Assembly: GCA_017467845.1 (NCBI GenBank)
Contig: JAFUKH010000075.1
Location: forward strand, 1-55,644
Direction of reading: 5' to 3'
From: Lachnospiraceae bacterium
Lineage (GTDB): Bacteria > Bacillota > Clostridia > Lachnospirales > Lachnospiraceae
DNA length: 55,644 bases
The notes under the pieces are model-generated. The model did not search any database and was not told the origin of the DNA. It was given only the letters and a program-made list of their open reading frames with translations. Made by a program: the position numbers and the translations under genes. Below are positions 7,201 to 14,523 of the stretch, piece by piece (the first letter of the stretch is position 1; each line of letters opens with the position of its first letter).

Positions 7201-8115
7201 TTGGAAGGATATTTATCAGCAAAGGAAGTTGTAGAAAAATACATAGAAGGATGCCAAACGAAAAGTCAGATGTTATCAAACTGCTTGTTCGCAAAGGCTG
7301 TTATGGCAGGCGTTATGATAGGCATGGGAGCAGCAGCAGGTAATGTGGCAGCGCATACGATTCAGGATGTGGGATTGGCACGGTTGGCAGCAGCAGTGGT
7401 ATTCCCTGTCGGACTTATGATGGTGATATTACTGGGCGCAGAATTGTTTACCGGGGATTGTTTGTTTGCAATGAGTGTCTTTGATGGAAAAGACAATGTT
7501 AAAAGTTTTTTGCGGGTATTGCTCACTGTATATTTAGGAAACTATGTGGGAGCCACTTTGCTGGCGATACTGATTTCCATGAGTGGGCAGCTGAACTATT
7601 CAGGCGGAATGTTAGGGGCTTATACAATTAAAGTAGCACTTGGGAAAACCGGTATTTCTTTCACAGAAGGTATTGCATCGGGCATTTTATGCAATATTCT
7701 GGTTTGCATAGCTGTATTGATGGCTATGTGTGCAAAAGATGTGACTGGAAAACTGCTTGCCAGCTTCTTTACCATTATGTTGTTTGTGACGGCAGGGTTT
7801 GAGCACTGTGTTGCAAATATGTATTATATAACAGCCGGTATTTTGGCATTGCAGAATCCTGAATACATGGAATTGGCAATGAGTGCATATGGGTATAGTG
7901 TGGAGCAGATGGGACAGTTAAATTTGACAAATTATTTTATTGCTAATTTGTTGCCTGTAACGCTTGGTAATCTGGTAGGCGGTATCCTTTTTGTAGGAGC
8001 ACCTATGTTTTATCTTAATACAAATAAAGCATTGCTTCCAAAGAATGCTCTGAAGAGGGAGGCGAAAAAACATGTTATTAATCGTTCAGAATTTCTTATT
8101 GACTCTGTTCATTGA
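7201..8115 (+). CDS. Formate/nitrite transporter (FNT) family channel
   Basis: 304 residues with six membrane helices. Family signatures are visible: GAELFTGDCLF in the first half (the omega loop with its threonine) and GFEHCVANMYY around the central pore histidine. In a fermentative anaerobe such FocA-like channels mostly move formate across the membrane, with protons. The start is TTG at 7201, seven bases behind AAAGGGAG; no ATG fits better. The 3' end overlaps a 38-codon ORF and the ATP synthase genes follow on the same strand with no terminator in between, so channel and ATP synthase are probably co-transcribed. Nitrite or hydrosulfide as substrate cannot be excluded. Confidence 0.9.
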   Translation: MEGYLSAKEVVEKYIEGCQTKSQMLSNCLFAKAVMAGVMIGMGAAAGNVAAHTIQDVGLARLAAAVVFPVGLMMVILLGAELFTGDCLFAMSVFDGKDNVKSFLRVLLTVYLGNYVGATLLAILISMSGQLNYSGGMLGAYTIKVALGKTGISFTEGIASGILCNILVCIAVLMAMCAKDVTGKLLASFFTIMLFVTAGFEHCVANMYYITAGILALQNPEYMELAMSAYGYSVEQMGQLNLTNYFIANLLPVTLGNLVGGILFVGAPMFYLNTNKALLPKNALKREAKKHVINRSEFLIDSVH

Positions 8116-8188
8116 GCTGCTAGGAGTTGTTTGTACTGCAGGCATTCTTTACTTATATTGGACAGCTATGGCCCAAAAGCAAAAATAA
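8072..8188 (+). CDS. 38-residue single-span membrane peptide
   Basis: A small ORF that begins inside the end of the channel gene, nine bases behind AGGGAGG. The peptide MLLIVQNFLLTLFIELLGVV is followed by CTAGILYLYWTAMAQKQK. It has one long hydrophobic segment with a glutamate near the middle and a short positively charged tail, so it probably spans the membrane once. The ribosome binding site is as good as those of the large genes nearby. Position suggests an accessory to the channel or the ATP synthase (atpI often occupies this place in other bacteria), but it shows no similarity to AtpI that I can see. Confidence 0.55.
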   Translation: MLLIVQNFLLTLFIELLGVVCTAGILYLYWTAMAQKQK

Positions 8189-8314: not shown

Positions 8315-8359
8315 TGTAGGTTGCATGAAGACATATTAAATGAAAAGGAGATGTTGTTT

Positions 8360-9181
8360 ATGAGCATAAAGGGGCGAAGGTCATACCTTATGGGGTGTGG
8401 ATTTATTTTAGCCGCTTTGCTTGTGGGGATTGTATTAACAAATACTTCCGAGGGAAAGAGCGAAACTGTAAAAGAAGCCATAAAGGATGCCGTTTTACAT
8501 GAAACAAACAAAGTCAGTTTTTGGGGAATAAAAGATGTCAATCCTGCTTTTATTTCAGCCATAATGGTTACGATTGTACTGCTGTTCGTTGCAGCATTGA
8601 TTCGAATTTTTGTCATTCCCAGATTTACATATGTTCCTGGAAAATTTCAGTTATTACTGGAACAATTAGTCGGCATGTTTGATGGTTTGGCAAAATCCAA
8701 TAGCCCCCATAGGAACGGTTTCCTCGGAGCCTACATCTTTGGGGCTGGGATATATATATTTGTAGGTACTATATTTGAGTTATTCGGAATACAGTGGATT
8801 ACAACGGAGGATATGTCCATTGCATTACCGGCACCTCTGTCGGATATCAATGCAGCGATAGCGTTGGGATGTTTGTCTTACCTGATTATTTTATCGGGAG
8901 GCATTGCCGGAAATGGTTTGCGCGGTGTAGGAAATACATTGAAGGATTTTTCACTGCCGGTTTCAATGAGCTTTCGTCTGTTCGGCTCATTGCTTAGTGG
9001 ACTTCTGGTGACAGAGCTGGTTTATTATTACATTAGTTTGAGTTTTGTTTTACCTGTCATTGTGGGGATTATGTTTACATTGTTGCATGCATTGATACAG
9101 GCTTATGTTCTAACGATGCTGACAGCTCTGTTTTATGGGGAAGTATCTGAACCACACGAAAAGAAAAATGGAGGAAATTGA
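8360..9181 (+). CDS. atpB: ATP synthase subunit a
   Basis: Membrane stator channel of the F-type ATP synthase. It has an N-terminal hydrophobic segment, a loop and the conserved C-terminal helices. The essential arginine is in MSFRLFGSLLSG (about residue 206), and the last conserved helix contains HALIQAYVLTMLTALFYGE. I chose ATG 8360, nine bases behind AAGGAG; an upstream TTG at 8321 is in frame but has no ribosome binding site. The stop at 9181 is one base before the c-subunit ATG. The N-terminal 65 residues contain a charged extracytoplasmic loop (EGKSETVKEAIKDAV) as in many Firmicutes. Confidence 0.93.
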   Translation: MSIKGRRSYLMGCGFILAALLVGIVLTNTSEGKSETVKEAIKDAVLHETNKVSFWGIKDVNPAFISAIMVTIVLLFVAALIRIFVIPRFTYVPGKFQLLLEQLVGMFDGLAKSNSPHRNGFLGAYIFGAGIYIFVGTIFELFGIQWITTEDMSIALPAPLSDINAAIALGCLSYLIILSGGIAGNGLRGVGNTLKDFSLPVSMSFRLFGSLLSGLLVTELVYYYISLSFVLPVIVGIMFTLLHALIQAYVLTMLTALFYGEVSEPHEKKNGGN

Positions 9182-9182
9182 G

Positions 9183-9551
9183 ATGAAGAAAATAATTAGA
9201 AAGTTATTCGGATTTGTAATGATGATGTTGTTGGTGGCGATGGTATCCATACCGGCCTATGCTGCCGGTGAGGCAGATGTACCGATTGATGAGGTAACTG
9301 TAAGTGAAGATGATGACACGGATAATGTAACCGGAGATAAGGCATTGGCGGCTGGTTTAGGAATTGGTTTAGCAGCTCTCGGAGGAGCTGTTGGTATGGG
9401 TATGGCAATTGCTAAATCAGTAGAAGGAATTGCACGACAACCGGAAGCAGAAAATAAAATCAGAACCGCACTGATGCTTGGTCTGGTATTTGTGGAAACG
9501 GCCATTATCTATGCGTTGATTGTTGTAATTCTGATTATATTCGTTTTGTAA
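9183..9551 (+). CDS. atpE: ATP synthase subunit c with signal peptide and acidic linker
   Basis: 122 residues, longer than the usual 70-90. Residues 1-27 look like a cleavable signal peptide (KK start, hydrophobic core, SIPAYA then AG). Residues 28-50 are acidic (EVTVSEDDDTDN), and the normal two-helix hairpin begins near residue 50. The polar loop reads SVEGIARQPEAENK. The ion-binding carboxylate is Glu105 in FVETAIIYAL. Na+-binding rings have a glutamine in helix 1 (Ilyobacter Gln32); here that place is Met72, while Thr106 and Tyr110 match the Na+ type. Specificity is therefore uncertain, with protons slightly favoured. The ATG at 9183 lies behind GGAGG. Confidence 0.9.
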   Translation: MKKIIRKLFGFVMMMLLVAMVSIPAYAAGEADVPIDEVTVSEDDDTDNVTGDKALAAGLGIGLAALGGAVGMGMAIAKSVEGIARQPEAENKIRTALMLGLVFVETAIIYALIVVILIIFVL

Positions 9552-9565
9552 GTGAGGGTGTAAAT

Positions 9566-10045
9566 ATGAATATTCCTTTGAATATTGACTGGCAGCAGAT
9601 TTTGTTACATCTATTCAATTTTATTATTCTGGCAGGTGGATTATATTTACTGCTATACAAACCGGTTAAAGACTATATGGAAAAAAGGGTCGCATATTAT
9701 CAGGATTTGGAGGACAAGGCCCAGGAGAAGCTGAAGTCAGCAGAGGACATAGAAGCAGAATATCGGATTAAAATAACAGAAGTGGAAACAGAAATCAGTG
9801 AAAAACGTCTGAAAGCTGCCCGGAAAGCGGAAGAAGCAGCACAACAGACAATTGATGAAGCGAAAAAGCAGGCAGAGAAAATTGTTGCAGATGCAAAAAA
9901 GCATGCTGTGGATGAGCGTCAGAAGATGATATCATCTGCGGAGAAGGAAATCGCAGAACTGGCTTCCTCAGCAGCCCAAAAGCTTATGCAGGAATCCATG
10001 GACAGTACCTATGAGCAGTTTTTTGAATCGGCTAAAAGGAGGTAG
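9566..10045 (+). CDS. atpF: ATP synthase subunit b
   Basis: 159 residues. A single N-terminal membrane helix (about residues 10-30, LLHLFNFIILAGGLYLLLY) is followed by a long charged coiled coil rich in Ala, Glu and Lys, as expected for the peripheral stalk dimer. It lies 14 bases after atpE and six before the delta-alpha fusion gene. The partner of its C-terminus is normally the delta C-terminal domain, which in this operon is found only as part of the alpha subunit. Confidence 0.92.
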   Translation: MNIPLNIDWQQILLHLFNFIILAGGLYLLLYKPVKDYMEKRVAYYQDLEDKAQEKLKSAEDIEAEYRIKITEVETEISEKRLKAARKAEEAAQQTIDEAKKQAEKIVADAKKHAVDERQKMISSAEKEIAELASSAAQKLMQESMDSTYEQFFESAKRR

Positions 10046-10050
10046 ACTGT

Positions 10051-11792
10051 ATGGAAAAACAGTTACTGAAGGCGGTTTTATATAGTGCAATAAAGCCTGA
10101 TGAGAGCAGATTAGAACAGTTTTCTTCTTTTATAAAGGAAAAATATCAGACGGAAGCTGTGATGGAGTGGAAACAGGAGGATGCCTTACGGGGAGGATTC
10201 AGACTGGAGGTGGGCTCCGATATTTATGATTGGAGTGCAGAGAGTCGTTTTAGACAGCTTCAGACACACTGGAAACATATTGCAGAGCATAGCGAAGGAA
10301 ATGTAATTCCTCTCTTGCAGGAGAGCGTGAAGCAGTGGTTACCAACGGCAGAACCTACGGAAATCGGAACGGTTTTGACAGTAGGAGATGGAATCGCAAC
10401 GGTAAGCGGACTTCCCGGTGCAACATATGGAGAGATTTTGCTGTTTTCTCTTGGAATACGTGGAATGGTTATGGATTTAAAAAAGGATTATATAGGTTGC
10501 ATCCTTTTTGGAGATGACCAGGAAATCATAGAGGGAAGTGAGGTCAGGAGAACTGGTCGAGTAGCAGGCGTACCTGTCGGGGACGCTTTCCTTGGTAGAG
10601 TAATTGATTCGCTGGGGACACCAATTGATGGTAAGGGGGTTATTGCAGCTCAGGAATATTGTCCAATTGAAAGACCGGCACCGAGTATTATCGATCGTCA
10701 ACCGGTAAATAAACCTATGGAAACGGGAATTTTAGCCGTTGATTCAATGTTTCCCATCGGCAGAGGGCAGAGAGAGTTAATCATTGGAGACAGGCAGACG
10801 GGGAAAACTGCCATTGCGCTGGATACAATTTTGAACCAAAAGGGTAAGAATGTTATCTGTATTTATGTAGCCATAGGACAGAAGGCAAGCTCTGTGGCAG
10901 GTTTGGTGGAAACCTTAAAAAAGCATGATGCACTTTCTTACTCTATTGTAGTAAGTGCATTGGCTAGTGATGCTGCACCACTTCAGTATATTGCTCCTTA
11001 TGTAGGTTGCGCATTGGGAGAATATTTTATGAATCGAGGGCAAGATGTTCTGATTGTGTATGATGATTTGTCAAAGCATGCCATTGCCTATCGTGCCTTA
11101 AGTCTTCTGTTGGAACGTTCACCGGGAAGAGAAGCTTATCCGGGAGATGTTTTTTACCTTCATTCCAGATTATTGGAGCGTTCTGCCAATTTATCTGAAG
11201 AAAAGGGCGGTGGCAGCATGACTGCGCTACCGATTGTAGAGACACAGGCAGGTGATGTGTCTGCTTATATACCGACGAATATTATTTCGATTACCGACGG
11301 ACAGATTTTCTTGGAGAGTGAGTTGTTCTTTGCGGGACAACGACCGGCAGTAAATGTGGGGCTTTCCGTGTCACGTGTGGGTGGGGATGCGCAGACAAAA
11401 GCCATGAAAAAAGCAGCGGGAACTATTCGATTGGATTTGGCACAGTATCATGAAATGGAAGTATTTACACAGTTTGCCAGTGACCTGGATATCACAACAA
11501 AGCGGCAGCTGGTTTATGGACAGGGCTTGATGCGGCTGCTTCGCCAGGCGCAATATCATCCCCTGAAGCAATACGAGCAGGTCATTTTACTGGTTGTTGC
11601 CTTAAATCATGTGATGGAAGATATTCCCGTGGCTGATATCAGTTGTTTTGCAAAGAAATTGATCTGTTTTATGGAAGAGAATGCATCTTCTCTCTGCCAT
11701 GATATTGAAAAGAAGGGGCAGTTATCGGAAGAAATGGAACAGGATATTCTGCGTTTGTCTCAGGAATTCCGAAAAAAATGGAGTGATGGTAC

Positions 11793-11805
<13 letters not shown>
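10051..11805 (+). CDS. atpA: ATP synthase alpha subunit with fused delta C-terminal domain
   Basis: 584 residues, about 80 more than a normal alpha subunit. Residues about 8-77 match the C-terminal domain of delta/OSCP: AVLYSAIKPDESRLEQF, then ALRGGFRLEVGSDIYDWSAE and RFRQLQ, the equivalent of GGFxxRxGDxxIDGSVRxRLxxL. From about residue 84 a complete alpha subunit follows: EIGTVLTVGDGIATVSGL, P-loop GDRQTGKTA, YVAIGQKAS, VYDDLSKHA, SRLLERSANLS, SVSRVGG. The order a-c-b-(delta-alpha)-gamma-beta-epsilon is canonical except that no separate delta gene exists; the delta N-terminal domain, which normally docks on alpha, is missing altogether. The fusion is a clean single frame with its own AGGAGG site. 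Confidence 0.93.
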
Positions 11806-14100
<2,295 letters not shown>

Positions 14101-14101
<1 letters not shown>

Positions 14102-14523
14102 TGAATACCTTTGTGGTTCATATTCTTTCCGCGGATGCGCCATGCTATGAAGGACCTTGTGAATCTTTGATTGTTCCCACTTCACAAGGGAAATATGGCA
14201 TTTTGAAGAATCACTGTAATATGATTGCTGCAGTAGTTCCGGGTTCTCTGTCTTATAAAGTACCGGGACGCGAGGAAGAAATTCTTTCGGTTTCGGAAGG
14301 AATGGTTAAGATAGAAAATAATGATGTCATGGTATTGGTTGATGTCTTGGAAACCTTGGATGAGATTGATGTAAACCGGGCAAGGCGAGAGGCGGATGAA
14401 GCAAAAGAAATGATGCTGCAAAAGAGGAGCCGGCGAGAATATCGTATAGCGCAGGCGACTTTGGCAAGAGCAGCTAACCGACTGCGAGTGAAGCAGCATT
14501 ACGATAAAGAATTTATGGTGTAA
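14101..14523 (+). CDS. atpC: ATP synthase epsilon subunit
   Basis: 140 residues. An N-terminal beta sandwich (TFVVHILSADAPCYEG, then SLIVPTSQGKYGILKNH and EGMVKIENNDVMVLVD) is followed by two C-terminal helices rich in Arg and Glu. I chose the ATG at 14101, whose A is the last base of the beta stop codon. An ATG 12 bases upstream lies within the beta gene and is less likely. Last gene of the operon. No strong terminator is visible before the next gene; 14524-14675 holds only short fragments. Confidence 0.93.

Follow-up and report, generated by a model that had tools for sequence, protein, structure and literature searches.

In an ordinary ATP synthase one delta subunit sits on top of the alpha3beta3 head through its N-terminal domain (NTD), and its C-terminal domain (CTD) holds the b2 side stalk. 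How, then, is the stalk held, and how many stalks are there, when delta is reduced to its CTD and joined to the front of alpha? This question is raised by a gene (10051–11805, + strand) in the window, by which we mean the whole 55,644-nucleotide stretch analysed here (Lachnospiraceae bacterium, GCA_017467845.1, contig JAFUKH010000075.1). An earlier note, made from the DNA alone, had asked what three b-binding domains per complex would imply, and the question was rightly raised. Our reading, to which we give a probability of roughly 0.55, is that the gene belongs to a second, H+-type F1Fo ATPase with a covalent stalk anchor, the complexes of which can carry more than one stalk.

The gene is a single open reading frame of 584 codons without an inner stop, and its product consists of a delta/OSCP CTD followed by a complete F-type alpha subunit, which confirms the arrangement proposed in the earlier note. 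The OSCP model PF00213 matches residues 3–72 (10057–10266, +) over profile positions 100–170 of 172 (E 5e-7); the search of the N-terminal residues alone that the note had suggested (here residues 1–92) gives E 1.6e-8, and the match exceeds the curated cut-off. TIGR00962 (atpA) covers residues 84–577, or profile positions 6–501 of 503, with 735 bits against a cut-off of 484, so that this part is a whole-length F-type alpha. The six-helix delta NTD is absent, as had also been claimed: the PF00213 match starts only at profile position 99–100 and, since the b gene ends 5 nt before the fusion begins, the NTD is cleanly missing. AlphaFold places the window CTD in the expected fold (beta-alpha-beta-beta-beta-alpha, pLDDT above 80 for residues 11–60) with a loose linker behind it, and a full-length relative (L205) with a six-helix NTD ahead of the CTD, although both models are of low overall confidence (mean pLDDT 66), with a largely poor alpha core that makes them uninformative on packing. 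The linker, variable in the alignment and of low predicted confidence, leads into the alpha N-terminal helix (NVIPLLQESVKQW, residues 84–96, 10300–10338, +), which was located by alignment and is relaxed in fused forms.

The fusion stands in a complete operon on the + strand with the order a-c-b-[deltaCTD-alpha]-gamma-beta-epsilon, all seven genes of which are intact and which has, as usual, one a gene and one b gene. Subunit a (8321–9181, +; PF00119, E 3.9e-18) is a 286-residue reading frame with a TTG start as listed and an in-frame ATG at about 8360, and subunit c (9183–9551, +; PF00137, E 8.3e-16) starts at the ATG behind a GGAGG within a listed frame of 9135–9551. Subunit b (9566–10045, +) has 159 residues (PF00430, E 4.1e-17). 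Behind the fusion lie gamma (11793–12710, +; PF00231, E 1.2e-87), beta (12701–14101, +; TIGR01039, 793 bits, cut-off 463) and epsilon (14089–14523, +; PF02823 and PF00401). No other delta was found inside the operon by Pfam and reading-frame analysis.

We take the helix-1 Na+ position of subunit c to be Q32 in Ilyobacter numbering. The complete Na+ motif was not found in the window subunit, where the helix-1 Q position is M; it is I in most of the other c rows (rows were obtained from 90 of 101 loci). Because the helix-1 glutamine is missing, the Na+-site glutamine rule given for subunit c (PMC11738941), applied at this assumed position, predicts c subunits of the H+ type.

The deltaCTD-alpha kind has been known since July 2025, and the earlier note's remark that no delta-alpha fusion had been described has been overtaken. 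Ueno et al. (2025; PMC12229609) describe a Bacillus PS3 FoF1 in which the delta NTD was deleted and the CTD (delta 105–178) joined to the alpha N terminus (PDB 9JC1). According to that paper, the F-type enzymes known so far have a single side stalk and a single a subunit, and the engineered enzyme has between one and three b2 stalks, every stalk with its own a subunit, with its a and b content about doubled and an H+/ATP ratio of 5.8 versus 3.0; it concludes that the NTD, sitting on the axis, limits stalks to one. Its authors thought a natural counterpart likely, and its Discussion lists as natural cases Acidaminococcus fermentans, UniProt G4Q3K6 and A0A1I2C5T3, which by the description given there are deltaCTD-alpha proteins without an NTD, like that of the window.

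The window protein is itself an in-frame CTD-alpha fusion without an NTD, with its parts in the same order as in the engineered chain. Its residues 5–575 align end to end with residues 3–574 of 9JC1 chain I, the only chain covering the CTD among the 60 chains listed of 69 matched, and 47 residues separate the CTD motif from the alpha landmark in the window protein, compared with 49 in the engineered one. Foldseek ranked 9JC1 first for the window and L205 models alike, at an rmsd near 24 and with the window model poorly packed. Taken alone, the window CTD gives weak matches to solved deltas (PS3 delta, E 0.044; 9JC1, E 0.31). The window differs from the engineered case in being natural, in having its own linker and alpha N-helix, and in the presequence of its subunit c; moreover, the engineered enzyme is described as lacking the epsilon C-terminal domain (PMC12229609), whereas the window epsilon has PF00401.

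N-ATPases, in which delta is reported to be absent or fused with b in the order beta-epsilon-X-X-a-c-b-alpha-gamma (PMC11738941), were considered for the delta-like end of their b subunit, the model of which (TIGR03321, positions 178–243) matches window residues 7–72 with E 6.6e-5. We rejected this assignment: the window order is different, and its alpha and beta scores fall below the alt_F1F0 cut-offs (TIGR03324, 613 versus 750.5; TIGR03305, 581 versus 752). The window b, of 159 residues, is a further difference. The b-delta protein of mycobacteria and Gordonia (PMC5709465) is likewise a delta fusion in an F-type operon, with b as the partner there and alpha here. The same paper notes delta-less operons in Clostridia, some of which may be explained by fused genes; for annotation this is a trap, as operons seemingly without delta may have it on alpha.

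The survey of Lachnospiraceae that the earlier note had called for shows that the window is not an isolated case. Within the genus, this alpha type was found at E 1e-195 or better in four of 24 other genomes, all four of them fused. In a family sample of 397 genomes, 148 match at the same threshold and 73, the window genome included, have in-frame fusions, which is a lower bound, divergent fusions under the threshold being missed. From the other 75 matching genomes 24 were fetched, every one with a separate delta of ordinary length (167–187 codons). The 73 family cases and the four from the genus form a working set of 77 fusions; a stop or frameshift between the parts in relatives, one of the ways in which the note thought its claim could fail, is contradicted by the 76 further in-frame cases. 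Beyond the family, a junction profile run on 391 genomes sampled across the class picked out at least 25, in 14 family codes, that have an uninterrupted fused frame (reading frames of 583–679, judged by the match listing alone), and six further cases belong to a different family within the order. The pattern used gave no alpha frame in seven of the 30 loci L252–L281, and the gene-order survey covered best matches only, so that weak fused matches are invisible there. Among named genomes we found 140 relatives of a full-form query and kept the best 80; an alpha frame was obtained in 77, 70 of them of full-fusion length or more and seven of CTD-only length, a split biased by the query. Named strains with the full form, as judged by reading-frame length, include Pseudobutyrivibrio ruminis DSM 9787 and P. 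xylanivorans DSM 14809.

The fusions take more than one form. CTD-only proteins like that of the window account for 48 of the 77 (L126 being placed here after inspection), full delta-alpha proteins for 28, and a b-deltaCTD-alpha protein for one. The OSCP match of every one of the 28 full forms begins no later than profile position 27, and in three CTD-only genomes (G177, G375, G102) the match extends upstream past a stop, where the frames are those of the b gene. The triple fusion (L150, 2929–5289; G108, C33:102128–104488) is a 787-residue frame in which PF00430 (E 1e-17), PF00213 and PF00006 are all above cut-off, and no separate b was found within the fetched stretch; as neither 41 relatives of G108 nor 100 operons yielded a second example, it is a single case. 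In a delta-alpha protein at L207 (3901–6255) the delta NTD is doubled in tandem, giving two OSCP stretches. The CTD-alpha proteins of L277, L278, L280 and L281 (families f28 and f31) and of L276 (f40) have YDGS or IDGS, not YDWS, and a quick tree places L276–L281 apart from the main clade; their fusions are probably of separate origin. Full delta-alpha proteins, the doubled NTD and b-deltaCTD-alpha go unmentioned in the available portions of PMC12229609, and the literature covered (mostly open journals, preprints aside) gave no report of Lachnospiraceae fusions, full delta-alpha or b-delta-alpha. The Lachnospiraceae fusions thus seem to be new in their extent, in the repeated loss of the NTD and in their other forms. 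As side observations, the fused alphas of L120 and L251, two loci probably of one genome, have a charged C-terminal tail of about 80 residues, and the alpha matches at G164:C42:2924-4423 and G462:C1:751238-752959 are listed in frames of 803 and 955 codons; such lengths may be listing artefacts, given that frames listed at 910 and 880 in G605 and G043 were 611 and 525 on inspection.

Does the cell have another delta from which to build its stalk? The earlier note had seen none, which holds for the operon and fails for the genome. The source assembly (2,995,431 bases in 105 contigs) has on contig C32 a full-length delta (165–680; 168 bits, profile positions 1–172), behind which follow a separate alpha, gamma, beta and epsilon in a conventional F1 operon; the contig begins at this operon, with a, c and most of b beyond its edge. 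Given this conventional delta and alpha, the window enzyme is the second F-type ATPase of this gut bacterium. The draft assembly, which is 85.8% complete, gave no match to the V-type marker PF01813. A separate atpH elsewhere, which the note had held to be fatal to its proposal, is therefore present, yet the case stands because 26 of the 77 fusion genomes have no other delta or alpha detected. In these 26 (17 CTD-only, eight full and the triple fusion; 22 of them at least 90% complete) the fusion accounts for the sole alpha match and the sole OSCP match, and must therefore provide the anchor itself. V-type subunit D is present in 22 of the 26 and absent from four (G182, G268, G365, G149), where the fusion looks to be the only rotary ATPase; G182 and G149 are CTD-only, and a CTD-only enzyme may thus serve as a cell's sole rotary ATPase. 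Across the whole set, 73 of the 77 genomes have at least one of a second delta, a second alpha and V-type D, and 51, the window genome included, have a second delta or alpha. The search (PF00213 at E 0.001) failed to register even the fused CTD in three of the 77 (G084, G044, G224), so that a stray CTD could escape it, though a full-length delta hardly could. The view that delta is supplied from elsewhere was rejected, being possible in the 51 but with the source undetected in the 26.

The history of the fusion was read from a tree of 111 alpha cores (475 columns, LG+G4, long maximum-likelihood search, lnL -41475.6), with supports from a separate SH-aLRT run; first quick trees, in which the fused rows held together scored better than the free search, were set aside. 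On this tree the fused state changes twice and NTD presence 14 times. A single CTD-only clade is rejected (delta lnL 391, p-AU 2e-74), and holding all fused rows together costs 56 log units, with a single fusion origin in the main clade not rejected (p-AU 0.084), these constrained searches having run for 60 iterations and the free search for more than 230. Full and CTD-only rows occur together in each of seven disjoint clades that have an SH-aLRT of at least 90 and, as regain of an NTD within a fused gene is unlikely, we infer at least seven separate NTD losses. Within the main clade, then, fusion looks rare and NTD loss repeated. A fuller scenario, which we offer tentatively and at somewhat short of even odds, has delta and alpha fusing once or a few times and the NTD then being lost many times independently, with stalk number and H+/ATP evolving, and one lineage adding b to give one b per alpha and a stalk unlike b2.

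If alpha carries its own anchor, the parts that ordinarily dock delta might be expected to change. We compared pairwise identities within an equal bin of alpha-core identity (0.70–0.75); since the pairs are not independent, the values are descriptions rather than tests. The 13-residue alpha N-helix, which binds delta in ordinary enzymes (PMC6131620, PMC12229609), has an identity of 0.72 in conventional enzymes and 0.69 in clade members with a separate delta, falling to 0.45 in full fusions and 0.38 in CTD-only forms; control regions differ far less (beta-barrel, 0.64–0.75; C-terminal domain, 0.49–0.52). The delta CTD, by comparison, stands at 0.41 in full fusions, 0.39 in CTD-only forms and 0.32–0.33 in separate deltas, the gap being smaller in the 0.75–0.80 bin (fused, 0.43; separate deltas within the clade, 0.40; conventional deltas, 0.35). 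With helix identity down and CTD identity kept, tethering appears to free the docking helix and not the b-binding domain. A relaxed NTD in the full fusions, expected if the NTD were undocked, was not found, their NTD being as conserved as that of separate deltas (0.32 versus 0.30–0.31), and this speaks against a simple story.

We propose that each alpha would bring its own delta CTD as a covalent stalk anchor; with this tether in place of NTD docking, the NTD would no longer be needed and could be lost as redundant. The CTD would presumably hold b2 as that of an ordinary delta does. By analogy with the engineered precedent, a head without the NTD would offer three like anchor sites, and complexes could form with one, two or three b2 stalks and as many a subunits; more stalks would raise the H+ per ATP, so that ATP could be made at a low proton-motive force, or protons pumped strongly. 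The tether is very likely, as the sequence, the gene order, the absence and repeated loss of the NTD, the relaxed helix, the constrained CTD and the collinearity with 9JC1 all point to it. Several stalks per complex are, on the strength of the analogy, probable rather than established; among the options that the earlier note had set out (one CTD used, cleavage, or a differently built stalk), this is the one with a solved engineered precedent.

Several observations stand against more than one stalk. NTDs that look normally constrained are kept in 28 of the 77 fusions, which thus get by without the very change supposed to make room for many stalks; the window operon has only its one a and one b gene, with no sign of extras in fused loci; and the triple fusion, if there is no other b, would supply each head with three b, fewer than three b2 stalks need. 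All of this would suit an enzyme in which the CTD of one alpha holds the only b2 and the other two are idle or capped, fusion being an assembly convenience and the NTD lost since three of them cannot share one site. Such an enzyme is possible, but we consider it less likely: the engineered enzyme with the same chain is reported to have taken up extra stalks (PMC12229609), and the CTD is no less conserved in fused forms. The several-stalk reading has also to reckon with the weakness of the CTD alone against solved deltas, with the low confidence of the AlphaFold models, and with the conventional enzyme in the window genome, the subunits of which could mix with those of the fused one. Carried further, such mixing would assemble fused alpha with the conventional alpha and delta of the other operon, for which the means exist in the 51 genomes with a second delta or alpha; the 26 without one, mostly near complete, and the mere 58% identity of the two alphas in the window genome make this very improbable.

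Processing, by cleavage or internal initiation, could build in one delta-alpha and two plain alphas per head, and the variable linker with its low predicted confidence would leave room for it. However, internal starts proved not to be conserved: in 16 of the 77 fusions the linker has a start codon with a Shine-Dalgarno match of at least four, compared with 5–56 in fourteen control stretches and 71 at the true start, and a laxer rule (ATG plus a three-base match) gave 24 in the linker and 1–75 in the controls. Internal initiation of an unfused alpha was rejected for this want of conservation, and the CTD-to-alpha spacing, with medians of 48 residues in CTD-only and 50 in full forms (by a motif search that misplaced a few rows, at values of 10–39), likewise tells against processing, which we consider very improbable. 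That the window comes from a draft assembly might suggest an assembly error, or a lost stop in a dying operon; this is refuted for practical purposes by the 76 other in-frame fusions, of which those of G006 and G431 lie in single-contig genomes, by the seven intact operon genes and by the constraint on the CTD.

One stalk with one a subunit ties the H+ used per ATP to c-ring size, a rule that the engineered enzyme of 2025 is reported to have broken (PMC12229609). The window has the layout that was engineered to give more than one stalk and to make each ATP cost more protons, and a natural multi-stalk ATP synthase is now directly searchable, near relatives providing a testable natural series of separate delta, full delta-alpha and CTD-only forms. 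The losses also suggest why the NTD is dispensable, docking being redundant once the CTD is tethered. If stalk number differs between the forms, anaerobes living at low proton-motive force would gain a second control of coupling besides ring size.

A few minor features of the operon and its surroundings may be added. The window subunit c has a presequence of about 50 residues that, judged by eye, is signal-peptide-like with an acidic stretch; among the c rows, 21 from CTD-only loci have an ET motif in reading frames of 117–159 codons, and the remaining 69 shown (one ET row included) have frames of at most 99 codons. Directly upstream of the operon lies a formate/nitrite transporter gene (PF01226, 7201–8115), a neighbour found in two of 101 loci (the window and L153, with flanks of up to 3.5 kb), and between it and subunit a we noted by eye a possible membrane peptide of 38 residues (8069–8188).
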